DNA of 64,000 bases, from positions 186,001-250,000 of the forward strand of contig CANMAW010000001.1 in assembly GCA_947495915.1 (NCBI GenBank). The letters are read 5' to 3'. Below the pieces are notes generated by a model. The model searched no databases. It was not told the origin of the DNA and was given only the letters and a program-made list of their open reading frames with translations. This document shows positions 11,873 through 42,748 of this stretch, piece after piece (within the stretch, counting starts at the first letter, position 1; the number at the start of each line of letters is the position of its first letter). The stretch comes from Maribacter algarum (ex Lu et al. 2025) (nom. illeg.) (GTDB taxonomy: Bacteria; Bacteroidota; Bacteroidia; Flavobacteriales; Flavobacteriaceae). A program made the translations under genes and the position numbers.

Positions 11873-13399
11873 TCAATTTCCTAAATTTGGATTTCGCGCA
11901 ACGGCATCGGCAGGAATCGGTGCTAAATAATTACTAGTCTCAAGACTACCGATAATAGGATTATGTTCTGGAATAGGGCCACTAACGTTATCTCTTTCTG
12001 AAAGAACCTCTGATACTTTTTCTCTTCGCATCAAATCATACCATCGAACATATTCTCCGGCAAATTCCCATTTCCGCTCAGTAAACGCTAAATCAGCAAG
12101 ATCGCCGGAAGAGATATCAACGCTTGCATCAGGAGTTGCATATGGCAAGCCTGCAGCCCTGCGTCGAATCTTATTTAAAGCTTCCCACGCGTCTGGCGTA
12201 TCATTGCCTGATAGGCCTGAAGCTTCAGCATAAATCAACAATATTTCTGCATATCGCATCAGAAAATCATTTCTAATTGTTAAAAAATCACCAGGATTTA
12301 AATCTCCTTCCGGACCTACAATTTTCTTAAATACCGGACTTTTTTGAGCATTAAATTGCGTCCAATCCAAATCTGTTCTGTACGTCGCTTCTTTTCTTGG
12401 TCCTTCTGGAAAATCTTCAAAAAACTTAATTTCTGCAAAAGTTTCGTTCCAACCTCCTAAATCAGCAGGTAACCCTAATCTTGCAAATTTTCTGTTTGCC
12501 AAACTATTGTTTGGGCAACCTTTACAATACACCAAGGTGAATAACGACTCAGGACTAAATCTACCGGCCACTGTCCATAAAGTTTCCAAATTATCTACCA
12601 ATCCGAAACCATAGGTACCAGCATTGTCAATAACATCTTTTGCAGTGCTTGCCGCAAGTGCATATTTGCTGGTATCTTTAATAGGAAAACCAGCCCAATC
12701 CATATACAATCTAGCTAAAAATGCTTTTGCAGAACCTTTATTTGGTCTTGGTGCCCCAGGCAAAACTCCTGGATACATATCTGGAAGCCTTTCTCTTGCT
12801 TCAATTAAATCAGACTCTATCTGCATATATACATCAAGAACAGGAGATTTTGAAATATTAGGATCTGGAAATTTAGATAACGGAATTGGTATATCACCAT
12901 GAACCCTTGCTAATTGATAAAACATAATACCTCTTAAAAAATATGCCTCACCTATTTGACGCTCTAATATTTCTTGATTAATCGTTTCTAAACCAATTAA
13001 ACCTGCAGATCTTTCTAAAACACCATTAATCGCGTTAATCGCATCATATATCGCATTCCAGTTTCTTAAAAGTCTGTTATTTGAAGACAATACCGCTCTC
13101 TGATCAAACTCTCTAAAATCGGCCTTGTTTAGTGCTCTATGAGTGGTCATATCATCACCTGCCCACGCAGGTGCATAAAATGTTGTCATACGTGCTGCCA
13201 ACACTACCTGACTATATACTCCACCAATACCCTTGTCCATCTGCTCTAAACTACCGAAAGACTCGGGTGGCAAGGCAAATTCTGTGGGGTCAGGATCCAA
13301 ATCAGCACAACTCTGAACTACAAAGCCTGCTGCAATCAAAAGAAGTGAGCCGAAAAACGATGTTCTTTTAAAGGCTCTTTTTAAATTAATTGTTTTCAT
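11873..13399 (-). CDS. susD: SusD/RagB-family outer-membrane glycan-binding lipoprotein
   Basis: A 508-residue SusD-like protein. The N-terminus is a lipoprotein signal (LIAAGFVVQSC, lipidated C31). TPR-like helices of the N-terminal SusD_RagB region follow (DAINAINGVLERSA, QIGEAYFLRGIMFYQLARVH). The C-terminal SusD signature is clear (LTIRNDFLMRYAEILLIYAE, ALNKIRRRAAGLP, RKWEFAGEYVRWYDLMRREK). It caps the SusC barrel encoded 36 bases upstream on the same strand and captures oligosaccharides at the cell surface. The strong hairpin just downstream ends this transcript. Which glycan it binds cannot be read from the sequence. Confidence 0.96.
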   Translation of the reverse strand: MKTINLKRAFKRTSFFGSLLLIAAGFVVQSCADLDPDPTEFALPPESFGSLEQMDKGIGGVYSQVVLAARMTTFYAPAWAGDDMTTHRALNKADFREFDQRAVLSSNNRLLRNWNAIYDAINAINGVLERSAGLIGLETINQEILERQIGEAYFLRGIMFYQLARVHGDIPIPLSKFPDPNISKSPVLDVYMQIESDLIEARERLPDMYPGVLPGAPRPNKGSAKAFLARLYMDWAGFPIKDTSKYALAASTAKDVIDNAGTYGFGLVDNLETLWTVAGRFSPESLFTLVYCKGCPNNSLANRKFARLGLPADLGGWNETFAEIKFFEDFPEGPRKEATYRTDLDWTQFNAQKSPVFKKIVGPEGDLNPGDFLTIRNDFLMRYAEILLIYAEASGLSGNDTPDAWEALNKIRRRAAGLPYATPDASVDISSGDLADLAFTERKWEFAGEYVRWYDLMRREKVSEVLSERDNVSGPIPEHNPIIGSLETSNYLAPIPADAVARNPNLGN

Positions 13400-13435
13400 A
13401 TGATTTTTTTATTTTAAAGATAAAAATTCGATAGA

Positions 13436-16400
13436 TTAAAAAGTTACTTTAACTCCAAGAACTCCGGTTCTAGGGTTTGGATAGGCACCTGTATCAATAC
13501 CTGCACCTGCATCAGCGTTGGCAGTCTCACCACCAAAAGTTCTAACAGTTGATGATACCTCTGGATCAAAACCGCTATAATCAGTAATCAAAAGCAAATT
13601 TTGACCACTAGCATAAAGCTGTAGACTTGTTATTCCTTTAATAATGTTTTCTTTAAATGTATATCCTATTTTAAGATTACTTAATCTAACGAAATCACCT
13701 TTTTCAACCCATCTTGAACTATTCAATACATTACCTGTACCTGCTCTAGGTATATCAGTTTCATTTTCCGGTGTCCATCTATCGTAAACAGTTGGAGACA
13801 AATTACTTCTGTTTCCTCCGTTACCGCTAATGGTTCCTGTTACTTGATTATAAACATCGAAGCCAAATGAACCGTTCCAAAACATATTTAAATCCCAATT
13901 TTTATAGGTAAAGGTATTATTGAAACCCATAGTAACCTTTGGAAGACCACTACCAATAGTATTGAATTCCAACTCATTATTTTCATCTAGTTTAAACTTA
14001 GCATCTCCAGGCTGGAATAATGGGTTACCATCACCATCAACAGGAATATTATCATTGGTTTTCCATGTACCTTGATATTCATATCCCCAGAAAGTACCTA
14101 AAGGCTCGCCAATTTTGATAACGTTTAATCTAATTCCTCCACCGCCAATTCCAGCGGCATTACCTACTATAAAATCAATTTCTGGGTCATTGAGTTTGGT
14201 AACCTCGTTTGAAAGTTGTGAAACATTGAAGCTAGCATCCCAACTAAAATTTTCTTTTTGAACTATTGCGGCTGAAAGCGAGAAGTCAATTCCTTTATTA
14301 TTTACACCACCCGCGTTAATAAAAGTTCGAATAGAAGTACCAGGCACTATGGTTTGAAGTAATAGATCTTCAGTATCTTTATTAAACCAGTCAATAGAAC
14401 CTGTCAATCTATTATTAAAGAAGCCAAAATCAACTCCGACGTTAGTTTGTGTAGTGGTCTCCCAGGTTAGTTCTGGATTTCCTTCTTGTACTTGTACCTC
14501 ACCAGTATCAGAATTCACACCATCAAACGTAAACAAGCCTGTACCGCTATTGGCTGAAAACCTAGCAGAAGCATTTATATTCTGATTTCCTACCTTACCC
14601 CAACCTGCACGTAATTTTAATGAGGACAAGGTTTTACTATTTTTTATAAAGTCTTTATTGCCAAAATTTAAAGCAAGGGCTCCTGACGGGAAATAGCCCG
14701 TTCTGTTGCCTTTGGCAAATCTTGATGACTCATCAACACGCATAGATCCTGTGAGGTACAAAAAGCCGTCATAATTATATTGTAAACGACCAAGATACGA
14801 TTGTATAGCCGACTGATTTCCGTTATTCGAAAAGTTTTCAGCATTACTCTCATCAGCAAGATATAACCCTCCTACATTCAAATCTGAAACGTTATATCCG
14901 TTATTTACCCCACGAGCACCCTGAAATTCATACACTCCAGTAATATCTAAATTACTTTTACCAAATTCTTTGGTCCAATTTAAAATGTTACTGATTTGAT
15001 GTGCTGTACTATTAAAATTATTATAGCCGATGTTAGTGAAACCTGTTGCATCAAAATCACCTTCTACTCTAAAAGATTCGGTTGCACTGTTAATTGTAGA
15101 CACCGATGCTATCAAAGTATAATTAAAATTATCAGTGAAATTATACTTACCATTCAAAGTAAGATTCAGCCGATCAGTCATTACTTCATGGTTACTTAAT
15201 TCTAATCTTCGTATTGGATTGAAGTTGTTATTGGCGACCTCTCTTGGTGATCTTAGAATATAGTTTCCATCAGCATCTCGAACAGCCGCAGTTGGATCCC
15301 AGGTGATAGATCTAAGAATACCACTTCCATCGCCACGATTAAAGGCATCTTGATTATTGACTGTTGTTTCTCTACTAGCCGTAATATTTGCTGCTAGACT
15401 GAATTTATCATTAAACTCTTTACTCAAATTTGATCTGAAAGAGAATCTTTCATACTCTGAAGTAATTTGGATACCTTTTTGATCGATGTAATTTCCAGAA
15501 AGAAAATAACGAACTCCATCATCACTGCCACCACTAACCGATATTTGAGTATTATTAGTTATTCCTGTTTGAAAAATCAAGTCTTGATACCGAATTGGAT
15601 TAGCTTCAAATGCTGCTATTTGAGCAGCTGAATATGGAGCATTGGAAGGATCATTAACTGGGTTTGCGATAAATTCATCATTTTCAAGTTGTGCGAATTG
15701 TGCAGAACTAAGTGTAGGCAATCTCTTTTCTACTGTTGAGAAAGAGACAAACTGATCGATTGCTACAGTTGCCTTACCAGAGCCTCTTTTAGTTGTTACT
15801 AAAATCACCCCATTTGACCCTCTCGAACCGTAGATTGCTAAGGCAGATGCATCTTTTAATACTTCTATCGACTGAATGTTATTAGGGTTGATAGTTCTCA
15901 AATCACCACCAAACACACCATCAACTACAACTAAAGGGTCATTATTACCAGTGATAGAATTAACCCCTCTTACCCTAACTTTAATTCCGGCGCCCGGTTG
16001 ACCTGACCCTGCGACGGTTACACCTGCAGCTCGACCTTGAAGAGCGTCTTCTACCCTAGTTAGTGGTTGGTCTTCGAATTGTTTAGCTGTAACTTGAGCC
16101 ACCGCCCCAGTAACATCACTCTTTTTTGCTGTTCCGTACCCGATAACAACTACTTCATCAAGCTGACTGGCATCTTCAATCAATTGAACATTAATTGTTG
16201 TTTCGTTACCTACGGTTACATTTTGAGTGGCATATCCTAAATAAGATATGACTAATACATCACCCGAAGAAGCCTCAATCGTAAAATTTCCATCAAAGTC
16301 AGATTGTGTTCCAGAAGTTGTTCCTTGAACAAGAATATTTGCCCCCGGAATGGGTCCTCGGGCATCAGAAACTGTTCCCGTAATTGTCTGTTGAGCATGG

Positions 16401-16480
16401 CTGTATTGCATTCCCATAAGTGCTAAAAAAAACACTGTAAACAAACATTTTTTAAAAAATTCAAAAAATGGTTTTTTCAT
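13436..16480 (-). CDS. susC: SusC/RagA-family TonB-linked outer-membrane transporter
   Basis: This is 1014 residues from the ATG ending at 16480; in-frame ATGs at 16486 and 16519 only add residues before the signal peptide (KKPFFEFFKKCLFTVFFLAL, cut near SHAQQ). Domain order: carboxypeptidase-like regulatory domain (TITGTVSDARGPIPGANILV), the TonB-box region (LDEVVVIGYGTAKKSDVTGA), the plug (RVEDALQGRAAGVTVAGSGQ, DPLVVVDGVFGG, IEVLKDASALAIYGSRGSNG) and a long barrel ending in TGVLGVKVTF with the terminal aromatic. It imports oligosaccharides through the outer membrane with SusD. It is the only SusC in the PUL and should define its substrate. Confidence 0.97.
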   Translation of the reverse strand: MKKPFFEFFKKCLFTVFFLALMGMQYSHAQQTITGTVSDARGPIPGANILVQGTTSGTQSDFDGNFTIEASSGDVLVISYLGYATQNVTVGNETTINVQLIEDASQLDEVVVIGYGTAKKSDVTGAVAQVTAKQFEDQPLTRVEDALQGRAAGVTVAGSGQPGAGIKVRVRGVNSITGNNDPLVVVDGVFGGDLRTINPNNIQSIEVLKDASALAIYGSRGSNGVILVTTKRGSGKATVAIDQFVSFSTVEKRLPTLSSAQFAQLENDEFIANPVNDPSNAPYSAAQIAAFEANPIRYQDLIFQTGITNNTQISVSGGSDDGVRYFLSGNYIDQKGIQITSEYERFSFRSNLSKEFNDKFSLAANITASRETTVNNQDAFNRGDGSGILRSITWDPTAAVRDADGNYILRSPREVANNNFNPIRRLELSNHEVMTDRLNLTLNGKYNFTDNFNYTLIASVSTINSATESFRVEGDFDATGFTNIGYNNFNSTAHQISNILNWTKEFGKSNLDITGVYEFQGARGVNNGYNVSDLNVGGLYLADESNAENFSNNGNQSAIQSYLGRLQYNYDGFLYLTGSMRVDESSRFAKGNRTGYFPSGALALNFGNKDFIKNSKTLSSLKLRAGWGKVGNQNINASARFSANSGTGLFTFDGVNSDTGEVQVQEGNPELTWETTTQTNVGVDFGFFNNRLTGSIDWFNKDTEDLLLQTIVPGTSIRTFINAGGVNNKGIDFSLSAAIVQKENFSWDASFNVSQLSNEVTKLNDPEIDFIVGNAAGIGGGGIRLNVIKIGEPLGTFWGYEYQGTWKTNDNIPVDGDGNPLFQPGDAKFKLDENNELEFNTIGSGLPKVTMGFNNTFTYKNWDLNMFWNGSFGFDVYNQVTGTISGNGGNRSNLSPTVYDRWTPENETDIPRAGTGNVLNSSRWVEKGDFVRLSNLKIGYTFKENIIKGITSLQLYASGQNLLLITDYSGFDPEVSSTVRTFGGETANADAGAGIDTGAYPNPRTGVLGVKVTF

Positions 16481-16519
16481 AATCATTGGTTTAAATTGTA
16501 CTAGTTTTGAATTAATCAA

Positions 16520-16925
16520 TCAAAATTATTTGATATTGGTGGTTATAGATATTCTTCTTATTCCGAAATTATTATTTTCTACATCGCAGTCTGTATTCCC
16601 TTATCCAACAATTGTATTTCTGAGTAAAAAATTATTTAGATTATAGATACAATCTGTTTTAATGCTACATACGATTTACAAAAAGAGTTGGTGGTCTTTT
16701 TCGTTTTGATTAAACAGTATTTAAATACATTGAAAATAGATCGACAATAAAAATTTAGTTTTCAACACCTGTAAAATCTATGATCAATAACAAGGGTTAA
16801 ATTAGAGTAATAAAAATGTTTGCTGATATCCTTTTTTAACCAGTAGCAGCACTATTTTAACATTTTGTTATATTGCGGGTGTTATTTTTACGAATCCCCT
16901 AATATTTGTGTAAAAACACGAATAA
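16520..16925. other. 406-bp leader and promoter region upstream of susC
   Basis: No gene is seen. The complement of 16521-16528 reads TAATTTTG, fitting the -7 consensus about 40 bases before the susC start, but with no clear -33 box. The sequence is very AT-rich with several T runs. A weak GTGT/ACAC hairpin at 16908-16919 follows the upstream sulfatase stop. The gap separates susCD from the six-gene sulfatase/GH110 operon. Confidence 0.35.
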
Positions 16926-18344
16926 CTATTTTGCACCTTCCTGTAGTTCAATTGAAGGTACAGCTTCTTTTTCCCAAGCCAACAGTTCCGATTTCAATAA
17001 ATTCGCTTTTTGCAAATTGGTGTTGAATACATCTTTTTCTTCTGAAATATCATCAGAAACATTGAACAATTGGTAGGTACCACTATGATACTTAATCAAC
17101 TTCCAATCCCCTTTAATTATTGAAGTGTATTGATCTTCATAACTTCGAAAAAAGTACAAATTTCGTGCAGGCATTTTTCTACCCTTTAGCAAGGGCATTA
17201 AACTTTTTCCATTAATTTGAGAATCAGTACACTCTTGTCCCGACGCAATTTCTACCAAGGTTGGATAAAGGTCAATAGATTGAACAGGAGTGCTGGTAAT
17301 AGAACCAGCCTTCGTTACTCCTGGATACTTAACTATAAAAGGTACTCGAGCACCACCCTCGCCTAATGTATTACCACCTGTTTTACCACCACTTAATGGG
17401 GCATTAGTAAATTTACCTCCTTGATCAGACAATAAGATAAAAACCGTATTCTCAGAAATACCTTTCTTGTCTAAAGCTTTGCGAATACGACCTACCGACT
17501 CATCCATGGCACTTACCATAGCTGCATATTCGGCATAATCACCTTTAAGGCCTTGAGCCTTGTATTTTTTCAGCCAATCTTTTCGTCCAACAAAAGGGCC
17601 ATGAACATTGTAATACCAAAGGGACAACATAAACGGTTGCCCATTGCTGTAACCATTAATAAACTTTTCTGCTCCATCTGTTAAAACATCGGTTAAATAT
17701 TCATTTTCAAAACCAGATGCAAAACCTTCAGGGTCTTGCTCAGGTTTAAAAAAAGGTGGGTAATAACTTTTCGGGTGTCCAGCATTAGTTGTGCCAAATT
17801 GTGCGTCAAAACCTTGATTTATAGGGTGGTACTTCGCTTCACCTAAATGCCATTTGCCAATAAACATATTATAATAGCCAAACTTTTTTAATCGTTCTGC
17901 ATAAGTTACCTCATCTAATGGCAACCAGTTTCGTGAAGGTCTTTGCACCGGGTCTTTTGGCCAAAGGTTAAATTCTTCATTACCCCCCAATGAGGCTTCT
18001 TTTTCTTTACTATCTATGATATGCCTAGTCATCTGAAAACGAACAGGTTCCTTTCCTGTTAAAAGGGAGGCTCGACTTGGGCTACAAGTAGGTGTGGCAA
18101 TGTATGCTCGATCGAAATTTAATCCCTCTTTTTTTAATTGGTCAATATTTGGTGTATTAAAAATTGAATTGCGAAATCCCACATCAGACCAGCCCCAATC
18201 ATCAACAAATAGCAAAACGATGTTGGGTTGTTTATATGTTGTCTCATTCGCTGTGGTAGCTATACCTTTCTTTTTTTCACTGCAGGAAAAAAAGAAGATT
18301 AAAACAGTGAATAATGGAATGATATCTTTTAAATCTCTTTTCAT
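16926..18344 (-). CDS. Formylglycine-dependent sulfatase (S1 type), lipoprotein
   Basis: A 472-residue type I sulfatase. The lipoprotein signal has lipidated C21 (IFFFSCSE). Metal-binding aspartates sit at D48/D49 (LLFVDDWGWSD). The formylglycine signature is CSPSRASLLTG, with C87 to be oxidised by a maturase. Later GKWHLGE and the C-terminal SIDLYPTLVEIASG and NGKSLMPLL blocks are typical. It hydrolyses sulfate esters on glycans at the cell surface or in the periplasm. It is the last gene of a leftward operon (26895 to 16926), 11 bases from the GH110-like gene. Subfamily and regiospecificity cannot be fixed by eye. Confidence 0.95.
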   Translation of the reverse strand: MKRDLKDIIPLFTVLIFFFSCSEKKKGIATTANETTYKQPNIVLLFVDDWGWSDVGFRNSIFNTPNIDQLKKEGLNFDRAYIATPTCSPSRASLLTGKEPVRFQMTRHIIDSKEKEASLGGNEEFNLWPKDPVQRPSRNWLPLDEVTYAERLKKFGYYNMFIGKWHLGEAKYHPINQGFDAQFGTTNAGHPKSYYPPFFKPEQDPEGFASGFENEYLTDVLTDGAEKFINGYSNGQPFMLSLWYYNVHGPFVGRKDWLKKYKAQGLKGDYAEYAAMVSAMDESVGRIRKALDKKGISENTVFILLSDQGGKFTNAPLSGGKTGGNTLGEGGARVPFIVKYPGVTKAGSITSTPVQSIDLYPTLVEIASGQECTDSQINGKSLMPLLKGRKMPARNLYFFRSYEDQYTSIIKGDWKLIKYHSGTYQLFNVSDDISEEKDVFNTNLQKANLLKSELLAWEKEAVPSIELQEGAK

Positions 18345-18355
18345 ATATGAATTTC

Positions 18356-20239
18356 TTATTTAAATTTCAGTTTAGGCATATATCCATCAGATTCGATGAT
18401 TTGATTAGCCCTTCCCTTGTAAATGTTCTTTTTAAATTCAATATTTCTTGATGTTTTTACTTTTATCGCTGGGTTTTTGGGGTACAACATGGGAAAGGTG
18501 CCCGAATTAGTAATCGTATTTCCTTCGAAAAGTAAGCCATCTGTATTGGCTATTTCCAAAACGAGGTTATCGAAGTGATTAAAGGTATTATCAATGATCG
18601 CTATATTCTTAAAAGCAATATTCTCGTTATCATCATCTGTAACAAATCGAATAACACCCCTATTAAAACCGCTATGCTGGCCATCTTGAAAAACGTTGTT
18701 TTTAATGAGCACATTAGCGGCATTACCTGCCTCAAACCAATGTCCGCTTTCTACGGGAATCAATATTGGCTCCATTTCTGTACTGAAGGTATTGTTTTGT
18801 ATTACTGTTTTCTTCGGATTGGAAATCAACAACCCTCGCGCACGATTGTTTCCTATATTACAGTTTTCAACCAGCAGTTCAGGATAGGCATCTAAATTTT
18901 CAATCAAATCACCGACCATGACTGTTGAAGGAAGCTTTTCATTAAGTTTTATAATCTGATATCTCCCGTTAATTTTTTGAATATTATTTACCGTCAATTT
19001 ATCATAGGGGAAAAAAGAATCACTTAATCTTAAGAATCCGAGGGTGTCATTTGAGCGTCCAATAGTAAATCCCTCTTGCTGCGAATGCCCCATTCGCACT
19101 CCAATGGTATACTCATCTTTTATGTCGACAATCTCTTGGTAAACACCGTGCAAATTTAAACCATCATCGAGCATGTTGTTTAAGGTGCAGTTTCTTAAGG
19201 TAACTTTTCCTCGGCATCCAATAAAATGGGTGGCATCAGCGGTTGTAGAGACCATTCGATCATTAGAAGCTGTTACATTAAAATTATCTAAAAGCACATC
19301 CGAAGAATTCTCCACTATTATTCCCATTCCTCCGGCATGATGTACATTGACGTTTTTTGCAATGAAGCCATTGGTATAGGTAATTCGAAATGAAGGAGCC
19401 ATTCGATTTAAACTTTGATGCCCTTTGCTGGTCAAAATCATTCCTACTGGTGGCATCATTTTTTTATGTCCATGAATTCTAACGACACCTGGTTCAATCT
19501 GCTCTGCCCATATTTTATTTTCAATACCCCAAGATTTATGCAGTTTTGAACGCGGATCAGTTTTATACTTATAATCAATTTGGTTAACATTATGTTGTAT
19601 TGCAGATTTGGTTACCGTTGTTAAATTAGTATAGGCCTCTGTATTAAACATAATCGCTTTACGCTCTGGGTCAAACAATATCGTTTGGCCCACCGTATGT
19701 TCATAATAAGGTTTGATAAAAATGAGCTGCCTATTTCTAATTTCATAGGGATATTCATCAGAAAATTTCCAATCAAAAGTTGCTTTTACCGAATCGTTAG
19801 CAACGATAACTCCCTCACTGTGAAAAGGCACTTGCCAATCAATAGTTACATTTGTAACGGTTATGTTTTCTGAATTTTCAATTAAAAAAGGAATCATTCG
19901 CCCATGAAAAATAAAAGTTGATCCTTGTCCGTCAATCGTTAGGTTTTTAAATTTCTGCAAAGGGAAAGCCGTATAAATAACCACATCATCATGATTAGAA
20001 ATATTACTATATATTTCATAGGCCTTATCAGGATAAAAGTGATAAGTACCTTGCTCAAATGAAATCTTTGAAATAGGGTTTTCAATCGCTGAAAGCACTT
20101 TTTCCAAAACTGCAGAAGAAGCATCATCAGAAATTTCAGAAGTAAAATGAATGTGCTTTTTAGAGTTTTCGTTTTGTGCTTTACCAAAAACCGATGCAAA
20201 CAAAAATATAGAAATTAGGAACTTTTTTAATCGTGGCAT
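18356..20239 (-). CDS. GH110-like parallel beta-helix glycosidase, copy 1
   Basis: A 627-residue secreted protein with a signal peptide (MPRLKKFLISIFLFASVFGK, cut near KAQ). The rest is a right-handed beta-helix with many N/D-rich turns (NITVTNVTIDW, NVLIKNNVF, NTITNSG). Segments TTADATHFIGCRGK and MLDDGLNLHGVY (D358/D359) match the region that holds the paired catalytic aspartates in GH110 alpha-1,3-galactosidases. These are inverting enzymes acting on terminal alpha-galactose, and one marine member is reported to act on carrageenan-derived disaccharides. A paralogue lies 7 bases upstream in the same operon; the two differ in the helix around the active site, so they may cut different linkages. 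Assignment to GH110 is from remembered motifs, not a search. Confidence 0.75.
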   Translation of the reverse strand: MPRLKKFLISIFLFASVFGKAQNENSKKHIHFTSEISDDASSAVLEKVLSAIENPISKISFEQGTYHFYPDKAYEIYSNISNHDDVVIYTAFPLQKFKNLTIDGQGSTFIFHGRMIPFLIENSENITVTNVTIDWQVPFHSEGVIVANDSVKATFDWKFSDEYPYEIRNRQLIFIKPYYEHTVGQTILFDPERKAIMFNTEAYTNLTTVTKSAIQHNVNQIDYKYKTDPRSKLHKSWGIENKIWAEQIEPGVVRIHGHKKMMPPVGMILTSKGHQSLNRMAPSFRITYTNGFIAKNVNVHHAGGMGIIVENSSDVLLDNFNVTASNDRMVSTTADATHFIGCRGKVTLRNCTLNNMLDDGLNLHGVYQEIVDIKDEYTIGVRMGHSQQEGFTIGRSNDTLGFLRLSDSFFPYDKLTVNNIQKINGRYQIIKLNEKLPSTVMVGDLIENLDAYPELLVENCNIGNNRARGLLISNPKKTVIQNNTFSTEMEPILIPVESGHWFEAGNAANVLIKNNVFQDGQHSGFNRGVIRFVTDDDNENIAFKNIAIIDNTFNHFDNLVLEIANTDGLLFEGNTITNSGTFPMLYPKNPAIKVKTSRNIEFKKNIYKGRANQIIESDGYMPKLKFK

Positions 20240-20246
20240 GCTCTGA

Positions 20247-22067: not shown

Positions 22068-22076
22068 ATATATGTT

Positions 22077-31359: not shown

Positions 31360-31479
31360 ATAAATAGAGCTAGTTCTGTACAAGGTAATCGATTTTTTGA
31401 ATTAAGTGCAAATCTCAATTTTGAATTTTAATTCCTTGAAATCAGTAAGGCTATATTTTACTTATGATAAAATGGTCTG

Positions 31480-33614: not shown

Positions 33615-34661
33615 ATGAAATTCATTGTGAGTCAACCCAATAACATAACAATTCATGATATAGCCGAGGCGTTACAGATAAATAGCTCTACCGTCTCAAG
33701 AGCTTTAAATAATAGTTCGCGAGTAACTCAAAAAACTAAAGCCAGAGTTTTAAAAAAGGCAGATGAAATGGGATATCAACGAAATCTACTGGCCTCGAAT
33801 CTTAGAAAAAGTAAAACTAACACGATAGGCGTAATTGTGCCCAGAATATCAAGACATTTCTTTTCTTCCGCTATTGCCGGTATCGAAGAGGCCGCCTATG
33901 AATCAGGATATCGAGTGATCATATGTCAATCTATGGAACAATTTTCTAGAGAAAAAGATCTTATAGAAACGCTTGTTGCCAACAGAGTAGATGGTATTAT
34001 ATTATCAATTAGCATGGAAACAACTAATGCGAAACATTTGGAAAGTGCTCGAGTTAAAGGAACTTCAGTGGTATTTTTTGATCGTCATTGTGATGGCACG
34101 AACTACAGCAAAGTGCTGAATGATGATTTTCAGGGAGGTTTTGATGCCACTGAACATTTGATTAAACAAGGCTGCCAAAATATAGTTCACTTTTCAGGGC
34201 CACAGCAATTAAAAATCTACGAAAACAGAAAAAAAGGATATCAGCAGGCACTTAAGAAAAACGGAATACCTTATCGATCTGAATTAGTTTTTAATTCAAA
34301 ACTAATGGAAAAAGACGGTGTAGAAAACGCAAAAAAAATACTACAACTACCCCTCAAAATTGATGGTATTTTTTCTGCTAACGATATTTCCGCAATCGCC
34401 GCTATGCAACATTTGAAAAAACAAGGCATACAAATACCTAAAGATATTTCAGTAGTAGGGTTTAGCAATGAGCCTTCGGCGGCCGTAATCGAACCCGCGC
34501 TAACCACTCTTGATCAGTCAGGAAGGAAGATCGGTCAAAAAGCCACCGAAATATTATTCGAAGAAATCAATAATAAATCTGTTTTACATAAACCAAAAAG
34601 CATCGTCATAAAACCTTCTTTACTTCAACGAAGTTCAACACAACGTGCCTCAGACCATTAA
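33615..34661 (+). CDS. LacI-family transcriptional regulator
   Basis: A 348-residue regulator. The N-terminal HTH is ITIHDIAEALQINSSTVSRA (about 11-30), followed by the hinge (KADEMGYQRNLLASNLRKSK). The periplasmic-binding-protein-like sensor domain includes TIGVIVPRISRHFFS, RVDGIILSISME, FDRHCDG and FSANDISAIAAMQHL. It heads a rightward operon with GH88, the lyase-like gene and a sulfatase. With the palindrome upstream it likely controls itself, kduI and DUF4861. The ligand is probably a late uronate catabolite (inference). A cytoplasmic sensor would complement the HTCS periplasmic sensor. Confidence 0.95.
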   Translation: MKFIVSQPNNITIHDIAEALQINSSTVSRALNNSSRVTQKTKARVLKKADEMGYQRNLLASNLRKSKTNTIGVIVPRISRHFFSSAIAGIEEAAYESGYRVIICQSMEQFSREKDLIETLVANRVDGIILSISMETTNAKHLESARVKGTSVVFFDRHCDGTNYSKVLNDDFQGGFDATEHLIKQGCQNIVHFSGPQQLKIYENRKKGYQQALKKNGIPYRSELVFNSKLMEKDGVENAKKILQLPLKIDGIFSANDISAIAAMQHLKKQGIQIPKDISVVGFSNEPSAAVIEPALTTLDQSGRKIGQKATEILFEEINNKSVLHKPKSIVIKPSLLQRSSTQRASDH

Positions 34662-34671
34662 AAAAAATATC

Positions 34672-35868
34672 ATGATAAATAGATCTCTTCTACTAATATT
34701 TTATCTCCTTATTCTTGTGAGTTCTTGTAAAGAAAAGACCACCTATGTTGAAAAACATAAAACTTCTTCTATAGATAGGGCTGTAGAACAACTTTCTCTT
34801 CAACTTATTGAGGCGGAAAAAGCAAACAGATTACCAAGAACAGTCACTGCTGATGGAAAAATACACTGGACAAATCCTCAATTTGACTGGACTGAAGGTT
34901 TTTTTCCCGGTAGTCTTTGGTATTTATATAAAGCTACTCATGACGAGAAGTGGAAAATTGCCGCTCAATCATTTCAAACGATGTTTGAAAATCATAAATA
35001 TCTTACGACAAACCATGATTTGGGGTTTATTTTTAATTGCTCATACGGTAATGGATTTGACCTTACCAAAAACGAGCATTTTTCTGAAGTTATCGTGACT
35101 GCAGCAGACTCATTATCCACTAGATTTAATGCTACGGTCGGCTGCATAAAAAGTTGGGATGTAAACCATGGCTGGCAGTCAACGAGAGATTGGAAATTTC
35201 CAGTGATTGTTGATAATATGATGAATTTAGAACTCTTATTTAAAGCAAGCGAAATTACTGGAAACCCAAAATATAGTGCTCTAGCCACTACCCATGCTAA
35301 TACCACATTAAAAAATCATTTTAGAGAAGATAATTCATCATATCATGTAGTAGATTATGATCCTGAAACTGGTTTAGTTAGATCGAAAGAAACAGCACAA
35401 GGGTTTGCAAATGAGAGTGCTTGGGCCCGTGGTCAAGCCTGGGGCTTATATGGCTATACCGTTTGTTACCGCTATACTAAAGATCAACAATATTTAAATC
35501 AAGCTAAAAAAATTGCCAAATTTATTTCAGACAACAAACCAGAAGATGGCATACCCTACTGGGATTATAACGCCAATAAAATTCCAAATGAGCCTCGAGA
35601 TGTTTCTGCAGCCTCGATTACCTTATCAGCCCTTATTGAACTAGACGGATTTACACAAGAATCATATCTGCCACAAATCGATCAAATTCTTAATTCTTTG
35701 GCTTCTGATAAGTATACCGCGAAGATAGGAGAAAATCATAATTTCATTTTAAAACATAGCGTTGGTAGTATACCGCATAAAAATGAAATTGACGTGCCTT
35801 TAAACTATGCTGACTATTACTATTTAGAGGCCTTATTACGGTACCAACATAGTTATAATAAAAAGTAG
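34672..35868 (+). CDS. GH88-family unsaturated uronyl hydrolase, lipoprotein
   Basis: This is 398 residues from the ATG at 34672, which begins a lipoprotein signal (LLIFYLLILVSSC). An in-frame ATG at 34645 would overlap the LacI gene and precede the signal by nine residues. The (alpha/alpha)6 barrel motifs of unsaturated glucuronyl hydrolases are present: FDWTEGFFPGSLWYLY, TNHDLGFIF, SWDVNHGWQSTRDW, FPVIVDNMMNLELLF, ARGQAWGLYGY and PYWDYNA. By analogy with Bacillus UGL the key aspartates are those in HDLGF and VIVDNMMN. It hydrates the 4,5-unsaturated uronic acid left by lyases and releases the keto sugar that KduI uses. GH88 rather than GH105 is favoured by these motifs. Confidence 0.9.
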   Translation: MINRSLLLIFYLLILVSSCKEKTTYVEKHKTSSIDRAVEQLSLQLIEAEKANRLPRTVTADGKIHWTNPQFDWTEGFFPGSLWYLYKATHDEKWKIAAQSFQTMFENHKYLTTNHDLGFIFNCSYGNGFDLTKNEHFSEVIVTAADSLSTRFNATVGCIKSWDVNHGWQSTRDWKFPVIVDNMMNLELLFKASEITGNPKYSALATTHANTTLKNHFREDNSSYHVVDYDPETGLVRSKETAQGFANESAWARGQAWGLYGYTVCYRYTKDQQYLNQAKKIAKFISDNKPEDGIPYWDYNANKIPNEPRDVSAASITLSALIELDGFTQESYLPQIDQILNSLASDKYTAKIGENHNFILKHSVGSIPHKNEIDVPLNYADYYYLEALLRYQHSYNKK

Positions 35869-35875: not shown

Positions 35876-37432
35876 ATGAGAGCAATTCTTGTAATTTTTA
35901 TCGCTTTTGTAACTTCTTACTCTTCTGCTCAACAAAGTGTATTATGGGAAAATTTTAAAAAAAACAAAGCTAAATCAACTGAACCTATTTTACCAGACTT
36001 TTCGTTTGCCGGATATAAATACAGCGAAGTACCCATTCCAACGGTTGATTATAAGTTATTTGATGTGACTGATTTCGGAGCAGTTGCAAATGATGGCATT
36101 TCTGATAAAAATGCAATTAAAAAGGCAATCGCTGAGGCTACCAAAAATGGTGAAGGCGTTGTTTTTTTTCCAAAGGGAAAATATATTGTCAACACCGCAA
36201 CTGATGACCAAAGTATTATTGAAATCGAGCATTCGAAAATTGTTTTACGCGGTGAAGGAGATCAAAAAAATGGCTCGATAATTTTTTTTGAAAAAGATTT
36301 ACCTCCGGCAGACATGGCAAAGATGTGGACGGTTCCAAAAGCAATTAAGGTATCTACGAAGATTAAAAATAAATTGGTAACAACCATAATCACTGATGCT
36401 AAAAGAGAAACAAATCAAATAGAAGTTGCGGATGCTTCTACATTAAAAAAAGGAGATTGGGTAATCTTAAAAATGCAGAACAATGCCAAAGACTTAATAA
36501 CCTATGACATACAGCCCTTGAAAGTTGATGCAAAATGGACCACATTAATAACAGAAGGCGTACAAGTGAATGAAAGACATCAGATTGCAAAGGTTTCAGG
36601 TAATAAAATAACATTTATAGAGCCTATTCATTATGACATTAAAGCCCTACATGGTTGGGAAATATATTCCTTTTCTCATTTAAACCATGTAGGGTTCGAG
36701 AATCTTAGGTTCATGGGCAATTATACTTCAGATTTTATTCATCATGGGTCGGCTAGAGACGATAGCGGATGGAGCATTCTAGAAATCTCTAAATCTGTTG
36801 ATTCTTGGATTCGTTATTGCACCTTCGAAAACGTAAGTATTCCGATAAGTTTTTCGGCATCAGCAGCTTGTACAGCATTAAATATCAAAATTGAAGGCCG
36901 TACCGGTCACAGTTCGGTACATTCAGGCAATGGTTCAACCGGCATTCTACTTGCTAAAATTAATGATACGGCTGGTATGCATCATGCTACTGGCGTAGGA
37001 GGAGGAAGTACGACAGGAACCGTTATTTGGCGCTCAAAACACCCAGCTACAACTTCTTTTGAAGCTCATGCCTCTCAACCAAGAGCTACATTGTTTGACA
37101 ATGTGGTCGGTGGTTTTTTTAAAGGAAGAGCAGGCGGGGCAATTAAGAACTTACCCAATCACGGAAGGCATCTCGTCTTATGGAATTATTTGGAAACTGA
37201 CGAGGCGGAATCGGACTTCAAATTCATTGCCACTGACAGCCCGTATTGGAGGGTTGTACCTCCTATTATTGTTGGTTTTCATGGGGCAGGCACAACTTTT
37301 AATGAAGATGAAATACAAGTTTTGGAAAGCTTAGGCACACCGGTTATACCAGAATCACTATTTGAGGCACAACTGACCCTTCGTTTAGGTAAATTACCAG
37401 AATGGATAAATAATGTAAAAAAGGAACTATGA
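35876..37432 (+). CDS. Pectate-lyase-superfamily / DUF4955-type protein, candidate polysaccharide lyase
   Basis: A 518-residue secreted protein with a signal peptide (MRAILVIFIAFVTSYSSAQ). The N-terminal beta-helix start is of the pectate_lyase_3 type (FDVTDFGAVANDGISDKNAI, VFFPKGKYIV, IVLRGEGDQ). A middle helix carries HVGFENLRFMGNYTSDFIHH and DSWIRYCTFENV. The C-terminal part (WRVVPPIIVGFHGAG, LGTPVIPESLFEAQLTLRLG) matches my recollection of DUF4955. That domain is associated with lyases acting on uronic-acid glycans such as glycosaminoglycans, possibly PL29; the family link is from memory. It lies 7 bases after the GH88 gene and overlaps the next sulfatase gene by 4 bases, a context that favours lyase activity. 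Confidence 0.65.
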   Translation: MRAILVIFIAFVTSYSSAQQSVLWENFKKNKAKSTEPILPDFSFAGYKYSEVPIPTVDYKLFDVTDFGAVANDGISDKNAIKKAIAEATKNGEGVVFFPKGKYIVNTATDDQSIIEIEHSKIVLRGEGDQKNGSIIFFEKDLPPADMAKMWTVPKAIKVSTKIKNKLVTTIITDAKRETNQIEVADASTLKKGDWVILKMQNNAKDLITYDIQPLKVDAKWTTLITEGVQVNERHQIAKVSGNKITFIEPIHYDIKALHGWEIYSFSHLNHVGFENLRFMGNYTSDFIHHGSARDDSGWSILEISKSVDSWIRYCTFENVSIPISFSASAACTALNIKIEGRTGHSSVHSGNGSTGILLAKINDTAGMHHATGVGGGSTTGTVIWRSKHPATTSFEAHASQPRATLFDNVVGGFFKGRAGGAIKNLPNHGRHLVLWNYLETDEAESDFKFIATDSPYWRVVPPIIVGFHGAGTTFNEDEIQVLESLGTPVIPESLFEAQLTLRLGKLPEWINNVKKEL

Positions 37433-39027
37433 GACCTAAAGCTACCATACTATGTTTTTCGATCATTTCTGTTCTTCTCTTTAATTGTCGAACTAAAACC
37501 GAAAAAATTGAACCAGCAAAAACTCACACCTCAGTAACCGAAAAAAAGCCAAATATCCTCATAATTTATGTCGATCAATTAAGACGTTATAGTGCTGGTT
37601 TCTGGTCTGAGAAAAAATATAAAGATCACGTTCAAGGAAGGCCCGATCCGGTAATTACACCTCATATTGACAAGCTTGCCAAAAATGGCGCGGTGTTTAC
37701 CAACGCCGTTAGCAATTACCCCTTATGTAGTCCGGCACGTGGTATGCTCTTATCGGGCATGTATCCTGAACAAAATGGAATATGGAATAATTGTAGAAAA
37801 GACCGTGATGATAGTCTTCGAGATGATATTCCTACTATGACTGATTTATTTTATCAGGCAGGGTATAATACCGCCTATTTTGGAAAAACGCATTGGCACA
37901 AAAATGATCCTCTCTTTGATGAAAATAGCACCTACATAGGAACCACCGCTGCACCTGGCGGGCACTACATGAATACCTATGACACGTACATTCCTCCTGG
38001 AAAATCTAGACATAGTATTGAATATTGGTATCAATCTATTCGTGACTTGCATTATGATCCATTGGTTTATTCGAATGACTCCAGTGCTATTTTAGGTAAA
38101 AAAGATGGTGAACTACACAAGCCTAAAATCTTTTCACCCAAAAATGAGGCACGGTTAATACAATCATATCTTCAAAATGAGAATGCTATGAGAGATACTC
38201 TAAAACCTTTCTTTATAATGTGGTCTATTAACCCTCCTCATAACCCTTGGTCTAATAGCAATACAGATATGGAAAGTTTGAAAAAAAATTATGATGTCGA
38301 TAAATTCCCTCAAATTGACAGTCTTTTAGTTCGTGAGAATGCCGATTTTAAAGTAGGCAATTATGCTAGACACTACTTTGCTAATGTGACCAGCGTTGAT
38401 AATTACATAGGTGAAGTGCTATACCATTTAGAAGAAATTGATGAGCTTGATAATACCATAGTAATACTAAGTGCTGACCATGGTGAAATGTTGGGTAGTC
38501 ATTCTCGAAAAGGAAAAAATACCTTCGAAACCGAATCTTTAACGGTACCCCTTATTATCCATTGGCCAAAAAAGCTTAAAGATGGTCAAATAAACGATGT
38601 GCTCTTTAGTGTTACCGATATATTACCTACTACAATGGCCATGGCTGGTTTAAAAGATCAAATACCAGATAGTGTAGAAGGTAAAGACTTTTCAAAATTG
38701 GTATTAAATACTTCCGTTAGTACAATTAAAAAACCTGAAGGCGTATTGTTGCTCTTAGGAAATTCTAGGGGTATACTATCGGAGAGATATACGCTTTGCC
38801 TAAAGCAAAATAAAAAGCCTTGGGATACAAAAGAAGGTAGAGAACTTGAGACCGCCTATTTATATGACAATACAGAAGACCCATATCAACTAACTAAAAT
38901 TGAACTCGATCAGCTTCCAGAAGTATCTAATGCCTTATTGACTATACTTGGAAAAGAACTAAAAAGAACCAATGATCCTTGGTATCAAAAAAGGTTATTC
39001 TCTAATATTATTGTATATCCTAATTGA
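37429..39027 (+). CDS. Formylglycine-dependent sulfatase, lipoprotein
   Basis: A 532-residue sulfatase. The lipoprotein signal ends at C20 (ISVLLFNCRT). The first metal block is NILIIYVDQLRRYSAGFW, with a DQ in place of the usual DD. The signature is CSPARGMLLSG (C100). Others are YFGKTHWHKND, FFIMWSINPPHNPW, IVILSADHGEML and the C-terminal SVTDILPTTMAMAG. The DQ/YSAGFW form resembles sulfatases of uronic-acid PULs. It is the last gene of the rightward lacI operon and starts 4 bases inside the previous gene, so translation is probably coupled. Confidence 0.94.
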   Translation: MRPKATILCFSIISVLLFNCRTKTEKIEPAKTHTSVTEKKPNILIIYVDQLRRYSAGFWSEKKYKDHVQGRPDPVITPHIDKLAKNGAVFTNAVSNYPLCSPARGMLLSGMYPEQNGIWNNCRKDRDDSLRDDIPTMTDLFYQAGYNTAYFGKTHWHKNDPLFDENSTYIGTTAAPGGHYMNTYDTYIPPGKSRHSIEYWYQSIRDLHYDPLVYSNDSSAILGKKDGELHKPKIFSPKNEARLIQSYLQNENAMRDTLKPFFIMWSINPPHNPWSNSNTDMESLKKNYDVDKFPQIDSLLVRENADFKVGNYARHYFANVTSVDNYIGEVLYHLEEIDELDNTIVILSADHGEMLGSHSRKGKNTFETESLTVPLIIHWPKKLKDGQINDVLFSVTDILPTTMAMAGLKDQIPDSVEGKDFSKLVLNTSVSTIKKPEGVLLLLGNSRGILSERYTLCLKQNKKPWDTKEGRELETAYLYDNTEDPYQLTKIELDQLPEVSNALLTILGKELKRTNDPWYQKRLFSNIIVYPN

Positions 39028-39217: not shown

Positions 39218-41317
39218 CTAATTCATTTGGAGGCCAACCGTAAAGTGACCTTTTTTTAATGTCCCATCTTTCATTGTAATGTGGTAGCCATATCCTGGAA
39301 TAACGATACCGTTTTCAATTTTTTGAGATACTGACCCAAGATTGGCAATGACTTCAGTACCCGAAGAATATCGACTTCGTTGTACTTTAAAATCGGCACT
39401 TAAATATTCGTGGCTAAGAAGTTCTGCATAAAATGTTTCTTTATGCACCGGACTCACCAAATCACGCGCCATTTCAATCATTGGCTTCATACCTTCAAAT
39501 TCATAAGGTGCAAAAAAGATGGTTGTTCCTCTTCCGAAGAGCATACTTCTTAGTGCTTTAATTCTAAAATCTCCATTTTCTGTAACCTCATTATCAGGAT
39601 CTTGAATTTTTCCAAAATTGGCGATAGCTTCATGATACACTAAATTAAACAAAGGGGCATGATGAGAAAGCTGACCTAAAGGCCGGGTTTCAAGATAAGT
39701 CATTCCCTCGAACATATCGAAATAAGGAATCCACTGTTCTTGCCCATGTTCTGTACCGTTTACCAAATTGAAACTATCAATGTACTTTGCCAATTCAATT
39801 CTACCTTCTTTACCATCTTCACGATAAGCAGCAAAAGTAATGTCGGTGATATCAGCTTCTAAACCTAAGTAAGATACCTCACTTTCGAAATTCTTACGTG
39901 CTAGGTCTAATTGAAATTTGGGATCGACTCGAGCCCAACGACTTCCCGTAGCTTTCAATTGACCATTTTCATTCCTCCCCATTAATTCGGTTGTAAAGTC
40001 CGGATCATTTTCAAGCATAGGCGAATAAGCATGGTAGGAAGAATACAAATATCCATAAGATTTTGCTAGGTCTACAGCAGCCTTTAATTTTTGAGGACCA
40101 CCTAATACTTCGCTAATCGGAAAATTATGCGGTACAAAGTTCGAAAACGTTCCCCAAGCATGCACAAAGGCTTTTTCTACATTAAAATCATCATGTATTG
40201 TTTGAATGATATTTTTCAATTCATCAAATGTAAAGGCCATGCCCGGCATATTTACATAATGTGGATACCCCCCATAGATACCAAAATAAATTGCTCCGGG
40301 TAATTTCGCTACATTCGGATTACGAGCGAGTTTTTCTTTTAAACTAACAAAATGTCCTCGCTTTATAGCTTCCTTTTTGTATTCTTTAGCCATGGCAACA
40401 TAATCACCAGCTGGAATAAAATGATAGGTTATTTGATGTTTGCTATCCTCACCGTTCAATTTCCATATAGGATCTAAAAACAAAACTCTCTGATAAGGCG
40501 ACATTTTGCCTTCGGCATTAAAAAGGTATTGACCATTATTATTTATGTTATAGAACATTTCGGGTCGTGAAGCCTCATCAACAATACCCATTACAGCTGA
40601 TTTTTTATTGTGTGTACCCCACCAAGGCATTGTAAGACCAGTACCATTATTAAAAAGTTCTAATTTACCTACTGATTTACCGTTATACGTTGCATCATCC
40701 CATTTACAAAAACGACCTCCGTTCATAGGAAAAATATAAGACGGACAAATAATACCTTGTTTCTGTGGTATCACCCCTGCTCCTTTATCTTCGTCTGTTA
40801 TTAAAGAAAACTGTCGCGCAGGATATCTTAAATCGGTTAGTTTAAAATCTTCAGATTTTGTTTCTAAAATTTGAACTTCTAACTTGTGGGAAGCATTGAC
40901 CAAACGCAGCTCAGTTGCAATAGTTACCCCAGAAGCGATCGACCCATCATTAAGAGTAATATCAGCAAATTTTATAGCGATAGTTTTTCCATCTTTTTGA
41001 ACTACCTCAACAGTTTTACTTTTAGAGATATTTACCGTTTGTTTTTTTACATCTTCACTACTTAAGGTTAACAAACCTGCAGCATTTTCCCATGGGTCAG
41101 AACCCCAAACTTGGCCCGATTGTTTTTCTACAACAGTAAAACAAGCTGTTAACTTATTCACAGAAATTTTTAACACGTCATTTTCAATAGTAACAACTTC
41201 AGTGTCTTGATTTGCTGAACGTGCAGTATCAAAAGGCATAAAAGCATAAATTCTTGGGGTGAGTACAAACGCCAGCAGTACAATTAATGTTTTGAAAATT
41301 GTATTCAAATATTTCAT
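39218..41317 (-). CDS. GH101/GH129-like glycoside hydrolase
   Basis: A 699-residue secreted protein with a signal peptide (FKTLIVLLAFVLTPRIYA). An N-terminal beta-sandwich (about 35-310) precedes a TIM-barrel with NVEKAFVHAWGTFSN (about 379-393), YGYLYSSYHAYSPMLENDPD, a probable nucleophile region LGLEADITDITFAAYRED (D492) and NLVNGTEHGQEQWI (E523), and a C-terminal beta-domain. This pattern fits the related families GH101/GH129, which hold alpha-N-acetylgalactosaminidases and marine 3,6-anhydro-D-galactosidases. Exact family and substrate are uncertain. It lies 24 bases downstream of a sulfatase gene on the same strand. Confidence 0.7.
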   Translation of the reverse strand: MKYLNTIFKTLIVLLAFVLTPRIYAFMPFDTARSANQDTEVVTIENDVLKISVNKLTACFTVVEKQSGQVWGSDPWENAAGLLTLSSEDVKKQTVNISKSKTVEVVQKDGKTIAIKFADITLNDGSIASGVTIATELRLVNASHKLEVQILETKSEDFKLTDLRYPARQFSLITDEDKGAGVIPQKQGIICPSYIFPMNGGRFCKWDDATYNGKSVGKLELFNNGTGLTMPWWGTHNKKSAVMGIVDEASRPEMFYNINNNGQYLFNAEGKMSPYQRVLFLDPIWKLNGEDSKHQITYHFIPAGDYVAMAKEYKKEAIKRGHFVSLKEKLARNPNVAKLPGAIYFGIYGGYPHYVNMPGMAFTFDELKNIIQTIHDDFNVEKAFVHAWGTFSNFVPHNFPISEVLGGPQKLKAAVDLAKSYGYLYSSYHAYSPMLENDPDFTTELMGRNENGQLKATGSRWARVDPKFQLDLARKNFESEVSYLGLEADITDITFAAYREDGKEGRIELAKYIDSFNLVNGTEHGQEQWIPYFDMFEGMTYLETRPLGQLSHHAPLFNLVYHEAIANFGKIQDPDNEVTENGDFRIKALRSMLFGRGTTIFFAPYEFEGMKPMIEMARDLVSPVHKETFYAELLSHEYLSADFKVQRSRYSSGTEVIANLGSVSQKIENGIVIPGYGYHITMKDGTLKKGHFTVGLQMN

Positions 41318-41341
41318 GATCTTTTGTTTTTGTTATTAGAC

Positions 41342-42748
41342 CTAATTATGAGCAGGCCAAAATTTATCCATTCGTTCAACGTCATTACGCTCGTATACCT
41401 TTTTTAACAACCATCTGGGGCGTTCTAAAGTAGTTTCCCAAGCAAAGAGTTCTTTATACATTTCTTTATATCGTTCTGGTTCTTCAGACGCCAGGTTATT
41501 CAATTCACGTTCATCTTTAGTAATATGAAATAATTCAGCGGGCCGGTCAGGAAAACGAATCAACTTCCAATCACCTTTTCGAATAGCTGCTCGCGCATCA
41601 CGCTTCCAAAATAGCGTTTCATGAGGTCTTTTTGTATTCTGTCCATTAATGTAAGGAAGTAAATCTACGCCATCAAGGTCGATCAAATCCTTTGAATTAC
41701 CACCAGCAGCTACGAAGAAAGTTGGTAGCAAATCAAAAGTACTAATAGGATAGTTATAGGTTGAGTTCGGCTTAATCTTTTTGGGGTATTTCATGAGGAA
41801 AGGTATTCGAATTCCCCCCTCGAGATGTGTTGATTTTATGCCACTTAGTGGTAAGTTGTTTGAAGCATTCTTATCGGAAGGCCCACCATTGTCGTTCGTG
41901 AAGATTACAATAGTATTGTCTTCAATCCCTAACTCTTTCAGTTTGTTCATGATGGTTCCGGTGGCCCGGTCTAAGGCAAGAGTCATCGCCGCAACAATTT
42001 TTCGCTTTCCTTCTAATTCTGGAAATTTATTCATATCCTCAGGTTTTGCATCCATTGGAGTATGTACAGCATTAAAGGATAAGAACGCAAAAAAAGGTTT
42101 GTTGGCCTTTGCATTTTTTTCAATAAAAACTGTAGCATTTTCAGCTAAGGCATCTGTCAAATACCCTTTATGTTCTTCGAAATTTGCAAACCCACGTTCC
42201 ATTTTATTCAAGGGTTCAGCAGGTTCGTCGGTATATTCAAAATAACTTCTAGCACCACCTCGGAAACCATAGAACTCATCAAAACCTCTTTTTGTTGGGT
42301 GAAATCTATCAGCACCGCCTAAATGCCATTTACCATAAATTGCGGTAGCGTATCCAACTTCCTGTAAATATTCGCCCATTGTTTTTTCTTCAATAGGAAG
42401 CCCCATTTCAGCACCGTCAAACGCAGAAACGGCACTCATAAAACTTGGTACATTATTCTCTTCATAACCGAATCGGTATTGTGATTTTCCGGTGATGAGT
42501 CCGGCACGAGAAGGTCCACACGTAGGATGAGTTACATAGGCTTGCGTAAAACGTACACCTTCAGCCGCTAATTTATCTAAATTAGGGGTTATCATTTCTT
42601 TACTACCCTGAAAGCCAAAATCGGCATAACCGGCATCATCAGCAAAAAGCAAAATGATATTAGGGCGAGTTGTGTTTTTAGATTTTTGTTGACCTAAACA
42701 CAAAGTTGCTATTCCAACACAAAATAAGAGTGTACAAAGTTTTTTCAT
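41342..42748 (-). CDS. Formylglycine-dependent sulfatase, secreted
   Basis: This is 468 residues from the ATG ending at 42748, which begins a signal peptide ([20 protein letters not shown]); the ATG at 42772 only adds eight residues. It has [20 protein letters not shown], the signature [51 protein letters not shown] and [12 protein letters not shown]. It is likely the first gene of a two-gene leftward unit with the GH101/GH129-like gene, so sulfate removal may precede the glycosidase. A 360-base non-coding stretch lies upstream before the island edge. Confidence 0.95.

Follow-up and report, generated by a model that had tools for sequence, protein, structure and literature searches.

The window analysed here is a stretch of 64,000 nucleotides of Maribacter algarum (assembly GCA_947495915.1, contig CANMAW010000001.1, forward strand, positions 186,001 to 250,000; G000:C1:186001-250000 in the numbering used below), taken from contig C1 (1.24 Mb) of a 4.17 Mb genome in 35 contigs. 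It contains a cluster of 17 genes that was annotated as a polysaccharide utilization locus (PUL). Sampled genomes of the same family are denoted by G numbers, with G000 being the genome of the window, and fetched loci or stretches are denoted by L numbers. All genes of the initial annotation were recovered from the list of open reading frames (ORFs) at their coordinates and with their domains, and its end point, 42748, corresponds to the first in-frame ATG of the last ORF. Pfam recognized SusD, SusC, six PF00884 sulfatases, two GLAA-B (GH110) proteins, a hybrid two-component sensor (HTCS), DUF4861, KduI, LacI, GH88 and DUF4955 (Table 1), so that the gene families named initially were borne out. 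The same holds for the six sulfatases with different signatures, each of which carries one cysteine pentapeptide of its own (CSPSR, CAASR, CAPSR, CSASR, CSPAR and CGPSR), and for the juxtaposition of a uronate lyase-pathway set with alpha-galactosidase-type enzymes. The HTCS, the LacI regulator and the partition of the cluster into blocks had not been noted.

Table 1. Genes of the cluster with their positions in the window, strand and supporting evidence (bits, scores; percentages, amino acid identity).
Feature	Position	Strand	Evidence
SusD-like protein	11873..13399	-	Pfam; 82% to G184
SusC-like TonB-dependent transporter	13436..16519	-	Pfam; 82% to G184
S1 sulfatase S_A	16926..18344	-	nearest solved structure kappa-carrageenan S1_16, 259 bits
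GH110_1, alpha-1,3-galactosidase family	18356..20239	-	PF23763/PF23764; 80% to G184
GH110_2, lambda-carrageenan GH110A type	20247..22067	-	9beh 763 bits; 56% to P. carrageenovora plasmid enzyme
S1 sulfatase S_B, motif CAASR	22077..23570	-	nearest solved structure 4mhx (sulfamidase structure), 297 bits
S1 sulfatase S_C	23600..25339	-	Pfam; 77% in G184; 55% relative beside GH88-DUF4955 in L165
S1 sulfatase S_D, S1_8B type	25360..26895	-	9bbd 388 bits; 44% to P. carrageenovora
HTCS	27229..31383	-	Pfam; 67% to G184; 40% to Flammeovirga locus
DUF4861 protein, BT_3233 family	31480..32658	-	PF16153 293 bits; NCBIfam 405.6, cut-off 320
KduI, 5-dehydro-4-deoxy-D-glucuronate isomerase	32693..33526	-	NCBIfam equivalog 444.4, cut-off 250
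LacI-family regulator	33615..34661	+	Pfam; relative in 6/44 named loci
GH88 unsaturated uronyl hydrolase	34645..35868	+	3wiw 344 bits; other unsaturated uronyl hydrolases 168-181 bits
DUF4955 single-domain PL29-like candidate lyase	35876..37432	+	PF16315 202.7 bits; NCBIfam BT_3328 436 bits
S1 sulfatase S_E, S1_27-like (chondroitin/dermatan 4-O-endosulfatase kind)	37429..39027	+	6s21 328 bits, 8di0 298, 6j66 215
3,6-anhydro-D-galactosidase, DagB type ('GH129-like')	39218..41317	-	5opq 1222 bits
S1 sulfatase S_F, exo-4S-kappa-carrageenan sulfatase type	41342..42772 (ATG at 42748)	-	6prm 659 bits

Judged by homology, the block at 11873-31383 is a lambda-carrageenan-type set. S1_8B is described as an exo-2-O-sulfatase of lambda-neocarrageenan oligosaccharides that acts before GH110 (PMC12549532), and the window holds a sulfatase of this type, S_D, together with two GH110 proteins. 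GH110_1 is 53% identical to a Flammeovirga plasmid gene and 30% identical to the second GH110 of Pseudoalteromonas carrageenovora. S_B shares 61% identity with the product of a gene adjoining GH110 in a lambda-type locus on plasmid p1 of Flammeovirga kamogawensis, and in G084 and G180, whose loci contain GH150, its relatives are located close to GH110_2; relatives of S_A (58-77% identity) lie near GH110_2 in G184, G289, G001, G236, G219 and G246. The initial statement that the gene combination does not match a carrageenan PUL was not upheld, since the solved structures closest to GH110_2, S_D, S_F and the GH129-type protein are those of carrageenan enzymes.

The last two genes of the cluster form an anhydrogalactosidase-sulfatase pair. 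The structure 5opq is Zobellia DagB, and a new family was proposed for homologs of ZGAL_3152, according to the excerpted report (PMC5698469). Relatives of the window protein occur in six other sampled genomes at 61-80% identity. The label 'GH129-like' did not hold for GH129 in the strict sense, as PF11308 reached 20.8 bits in Pfam, under the cut-off of 25.6, but the match of the protein to the 3,6-anhydro-D-galactosidase structure is strong. Activity on alpha-GalNAc was rejected, the match to NagBb being 37 bits vs 1222 bits for the anhydrogalactosidase. S_F scored 321 bits against chains named S1-19, and its relative in G184 (79%) adjoins the GH129-type gene there.

A stretch of 80 kb in G184 (C1:1395001-1475000) contains all eleven carrageenan-type genes of the window at 67-83% identity, namely SusD, SusC, S_A, GH110_1, GH110_2, S_B, S_C, S_D and HTCS, followed at a distance by GH129 and S_F. 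Between HTCS and GH129, where the window has the uronate genes, G184 has 19 other ORFs, none of which is a cassette gene (0/19), and no close DUF4955 relative was found in G184 (best E value 3e-4). For fifteen of the G184 genes (5, 17, 18, 22-28, 33, 37 and 41-43) the best relatives among the fetched stretches, at 60-89% identity, come from a single part of contig C4 in the window's own genome (approximately 183-213 kb), where a SusC/D pair is located at 178-182 kb. The best fetched relatives of genes 31 and 34 lie on its C1:1-20 kb (67 and 75%; gene 30 at 51%) and those of genes 29 and 46-48 elsewhere on C4 (54-71%), while genes 11-14, 16, 21, 32, 38-40 and 44 were unmatched in the fetched stretches, which are a small part of the window's genome. 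On C4 the counterparts of genes 33 and 37 are adjacent, without 34-36 between them; gene 34 has its counterpart on C1, and genes 35 and 36, the anhydrogalactosidase and the 4-O-sulfatase, have theirs in the window. The simplest reading of these positions would be that one carrageenan regulon is present in several pieces in this genome, with further parts on C4 (approximately 178-213 kb) and C1 (approximately 5-16 kb).

The uronate cassette lies between HTCS and the anhydrogalactosidase gene in the order DUF4861-KduI on the minus strand and LacI-GH88-DUF4955-S_E on the plus strand. S_E is nearest to the endo-4-O-sulfatase 6s21, which we take to be the S1_27 enzyme BT3349. The best match of the GH88 protein, 3wiw, presumably acts on heparin disaccharides; heparin was not adopted as cassette substrate from this match alone, because the best match is uninformative on GH88 specificity. 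For the DUF4861 protein a weak beta-sandwich model was obtained (predicted local distance difference test, pLDDT, 68; best TM score 0.47, to GH38-type chains). The designation P29_PDnc was dropped for it, putative dehydratases of that kind being predicted with PL37 in the excerpt consulted (PMC8511951). Literature searches for DUF4861, for DUF4955 and for S1_27 together with carrageenan and chondroitin each found no paper in the library searched. A KduD relative (79%) is encoded in the same genome at C4:328662. At L151:2467-5294 (G000:C4, approximately 327-330 kb), a second KduI-KduD-DUF4861 set was observed in a locus with rhamnosidase (Bac_rhamnosid, Glyco_hydro_106) and sulfatase genes, and this set perhaps serves another uronate polymer such as ulvan.

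The candidate lyase of the cassette contains the DUF4955 domain and shares conserved residues with the BT3328 family, so that membership in PL29 is suggested, with the equivalog cut-off missed: the NCBIfam model BT_3328 gave 436 bits for the window protein, 418-501 bits for three relatives and 1131-1324 bits for three gut controls at a cut-off of 1100. In a tree of 102 rows calculated with a quick method, the window lyase falls into a clade of 45 rows, mostly Flavobacteriaceae (Shimodaira-Hasegawa-like approximate likelihood ratio test, SH-aLRT, 100), and the gut Bacteroides and Alistipes rows are in another branch. Residues H235, H289, H290, H345, H370, H398 and R403 are invariant in the three main groups (44, 9 and 31 rows); a fourth group, with 17 rows that are more distant, has kept H289, H345, H370 and H398 and has H235 in 5/17. 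The protein was modelled with confidence as a right-handed beta-helix (pLDDT 89.8), and the structural matches of this model, which comprise tailspike depolymerases, lyases and GH110 (TM scores up to 0.49), indicate the fold class only. A second DUF4955 relative (26-30% identity), belonging to a clade of its own, was seen downstream of the cassette lyase in L159, L166, L171, L174, L178, L185, L196 and L234.

The cassette recurs in other genomes apart from carrageenan-type genes. Twelve relatives of the DUF4955 protein (60-67% identity; next best at most 41%) were found in 11 of the 298 other sampled family genomes. In their surroundings, covering 40 kb each with two shorter, GH88 is present in 12/12, S_E in 9/12, KduI in 7/12 and GH110 or GH129 in 0/12. 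PL8 chondroitinase-type lyases were recognized by Pfam in G002, and homologs occur in the cassette loci of G003, G180, G237, G238 and G269; the cassette locus of G213 has a GH95. A scan of named genomes, which overlaps the family sample, covered the best 80 of 89 loci. Because of the flanks of 10 kb, contig ends in some of them and the identity limits on matches, counts in the named loci are lower bounds. Near the lyase neither GH110 nor GH129 was found in any of these 80 loci. Among the 44 named loci with a lyase identity of at least 54%, GH88 accompanies the lyase in at least 42, S_E in at least 28, HTCS in at least 19, SusC in at least 14, PL8 in at least 12, KduI, DUF4861 and SusD in at least 8 each, LacI in at least 6 and KduD in at least 4. 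A relative of GH110_2 with at least 57% identity occurs in 16 other sampled genomes, six of which (G001, G002, G072, G180, G237 and G246) also encode the cassette lyase; in these six, the two genes are on different contigs or, in G180 and G246, separated by approximately 130 and 290 kb, respectively.

Taken together, the region is very probably a mosaic of two catabolic systems, a piece of a carrageenan locus with a uronate cassette in its middle. Gene families, synteny, the partition into blocks and the occurrence of the cassette apart from GH110 and GH129 are read from the sequences themselves, and all activities and substrates, as well as the direction of the rearrangement, are predictions from them. 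In the mosaic, SusC/D would import oligosaccharides of a sulfated galactan (carrageenan), the S1_8-type and other sulfatases would remove sulfates, the two GH110s would take off alpha-1,3-galactose from the lambda type, the DagB-type anhydrogalactosidase and the 4-O-sulfatase would handle kappa/iota units, and the HTCS would sense the product. In the cassette, the PL29-like lyase is expected to cut a sulfated uronate glycan, most likely chondroitin/dermatan-like, S_E to take off the 4-O-sulfate, and GH88 to free the unsaturated uronate, which KduI would isomerize and the KduD relative on C4 could reduce. LacI may control the cassette, with DUF4861 as an accessory protein. A glycosaminoglycan (GAG) is the likely substrate of the cassette, and of this we are less sure than of the mosaic. 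The animal-type GAG put forward in the initial annotation fits the cassette alone and not the whole cluster.

Several observations weigh against the mosaic or against parts of it. S_C occurs in the G184 stretch and, at 55% identity, directly beside GH88-DUF4955-S_E in the uncultured Maribacter locus L165; with S_C in both contexts, a mixed substrate retains some probability. The SusC proteins of G072, G246b and L206 match that of the window with 672-724 bits (41-42% identity), those of the other family cassette loci with at most 472 bits and that of L165 with 565 bits. The GC contents of the blocks (36.5, 36.2 and 37.5%) give no separation. The lyase is accompanied by PL8 in only 12/44 and by KduI and DUF4861 in 8/44 of the named loci, and the compact locus L159 has a fucosidase, GH43 and DUF5060 as neighbours; with these and the GH95 of G213, the GAG reading is no more than likely. 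The PL8 profile PF02278, which matched G002 and G237, has no match in the window's genome; PF09093 is absent as well, with no positive control among the genomes scanned. Neither a Pseudoalteromonas nor a Flammeovirga query detected a GH150 lambda-carrageenase in the genome of the window; the Flammeovirga query matched two of nine genomes (G084 and G180; not G000, G184, G129, G289, G001, G236 and G219). With a kappa-carrageenase (GH16) query the genome gave weak partial matches to the C-terminal stretch of the query, none of them clear. With no GH150, clear kappa-carrageenase or PL8 found (GH82 and GH127 were not searched), neither pathway is shown to be complete. Neither GH2 nor S1_15 was recognized among the scanned PUL proteins (Pfam; S_C was not run against PDB), and a GH2-like ORF lies on C4.

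The initial annotation had proposed one sulfated polysaccharide with uronic acid and alpha-galactose as the substrate, and a single functional PUL for a sulfated glycan that contains uronic acid together with alpha-galactose or anhydrogalactose, such as a galactan of red algae bearing uronate branches, would explain the closely spaced gene run with borders of 96 and 190 bp, the two contexts of S_C and the six genomes with both GH110_2 and the cassette lyase, where approximately 0.6 would be expected by simple multiplication. This co-occurrence also fits broad polysaccharide degraders, and a functional link would give the same. We consider a single PUL unlikely, since the eleven minus-strand genes are syntenic in G184 without the uronate genes, GH110 and GH129 are missing from the surroundings of the lyase in the named loci, the six genomes with both keep them apart, and the blocks have separate regulators, HTCS and LacI. 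It is likewise rather improbable that the cassette was recruited into the carrageenan locus because the bacterium encounters a composite glycan, in which stretches with 4-O-sulfated uronate are borne by, or linked to, a sulfated alpha-galactan; if this were true, such a glycan would be the target of a new lyase family, represented by the single-domain PL29-like clade, and S_C would be a shared sulfatase. A misjoin of two loci during assembly could be suspected in a draft genome of 35 contigs and is highly improbable in view of the length of C1, the window without N, the similar GC of the blocks and the short borders, at which no long or exact repeat was found among the repeat families shown.

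Within the mosaic, the cassette might serve a uronate polymer of algae or bacteria, whether ulvan-like, fucose-containing or of another kind, in place of a GAG. The neighbours in L159, the GH95 in G213, the second KduI-KduD-DUF4861 set in the rhamnosidase locus and the low number of loci with PL8 speak for this substrate, which is nevertheless the less probable one, as S_E is nearest to the chondroitin 4-O-endosulfatase type, the lyase comes closest to the BT3328 family, which belongs to gut loci for chondroitin sulfate, dermatan sulfate and hyaluronan (CS/DS/HA), and several loci have a chondroitinase-type PL8. On the mosaic reading, the region illustrates that a gene list by itself can be a misleading basis for reading a PUL, because adjacent genes need not have a common substrate. 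The recurring cassette around the PL29-like protein makes this protein a candidate GAG or uronate lyase; the single-domain clade, which is little described, and the composite arrangement would be new details.

Concerning the genomic setting, a type I restriction-modification island (hsdR, hsdS, hsdM, a DEAD-type helicase and DUF3871) with a tyrosine integrase is located at 43133-62343 and starts approximately 360 bp past the PUL. At its two boundaries, 28 bp of the tRNA-Asn 3' end are repeated exactly (43133-43160 and 62316-62343); these repeats enclose only the island, and the PUL was therefore rejected as its cargo. In two genomes of the same genus (G270 and G050), the region right of tRNA-Asn is conserved and the left side differs (L242-L245), which places the PUL in a variable region. 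Colinearity with G270 returns to the left of the window, approximately 6 kb beyond its start, and in G050 no colinear genes were seen in 24 kb. Neither genome gave a match to the GH110_2, GH129 or DUF4955 proteins at the limits used; sulfatase-like and HTCS-like ORFs were observed left of tRNA-Asn in G270. An SBF-family transporter (PF01758) beside a DUF6428 gene at 9501-11124 lies left of the PUL and is not part of it. Proteins of approximately 1100 amino acids with FG-GAP/UnbV_ASPIC domains were seen near SusC/D (L155:4338-7703, L131:4781-8164 and L040:5891-9211), the contexts being a carrageenan-type stretch, the GH110 locus of G236, where GH150 was not found, and cassette loci.

The gene order of the cassette, DUF4861-KduI / LacI-GH88-DUF4955-S_E, is the same in Lutibacter citreus and an uncultured Lutibacter (L159 and L196), which unlike the window have no adjacent carrageenan-type genes. 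With the CS/DS/HA PUL BT3324-BT3350 of Bacteroides thetaiotaomicron, in which BT3349 is given as S1_27 4S endo-sulfatase, BT3348 as GH88 and BT3328 as PL29 in the excerpted description (PMC6994673), the cassette shares homologs of GH88, the 4-O-endosulfatase and PL29. In contrast to that PUL, the cassette is without a SusC/D pair specific to it in the window, no PL8 was found in the genome, the KduI and LacI genes are linked, and the lyase is a single domain of 518 amino acids under the equivalog cut-off.

The lambda-carrageenan PUL of Pseudoalteromonas distincta U2A and P. carrageenovora, as far as described in the excerpts (PMC12549532, PMC6262041), shares two GH110s and the S1_8-type sulfatase with the window (GH110A 56% and S1_8B type 44% identity to the P. 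carrageenovora plasmid genes), whereas the window has HTCS and SusC/D and GH150 was not found in its genome. PUL 23 of Zobellia galactanivorans by description combines GH110 and S1_8 in a genome without GH150 that uses lambda-carrageenan, for which an unidentified carrageenase was inferred; the excerpted description mentions no uronate cassette (PMC6262041). The genome of the window is one more with lambda-type GH110 genes in which GH150 was not found, as in Zobellia (PMC6262041). The kappa/iota regulon of Z. galactanivorans (ZGAL_3145-3159 and distal genes), as outlined in excerpt (PMC5698469), shares the DagB-type anhydrogalactosidase, the 4-O-sulfatase and the spread over several loci, and unlike in this regulon the anhydrogalactosidase-sulfatase pair of the window adjoins GH110 genes and a uronate cassette.

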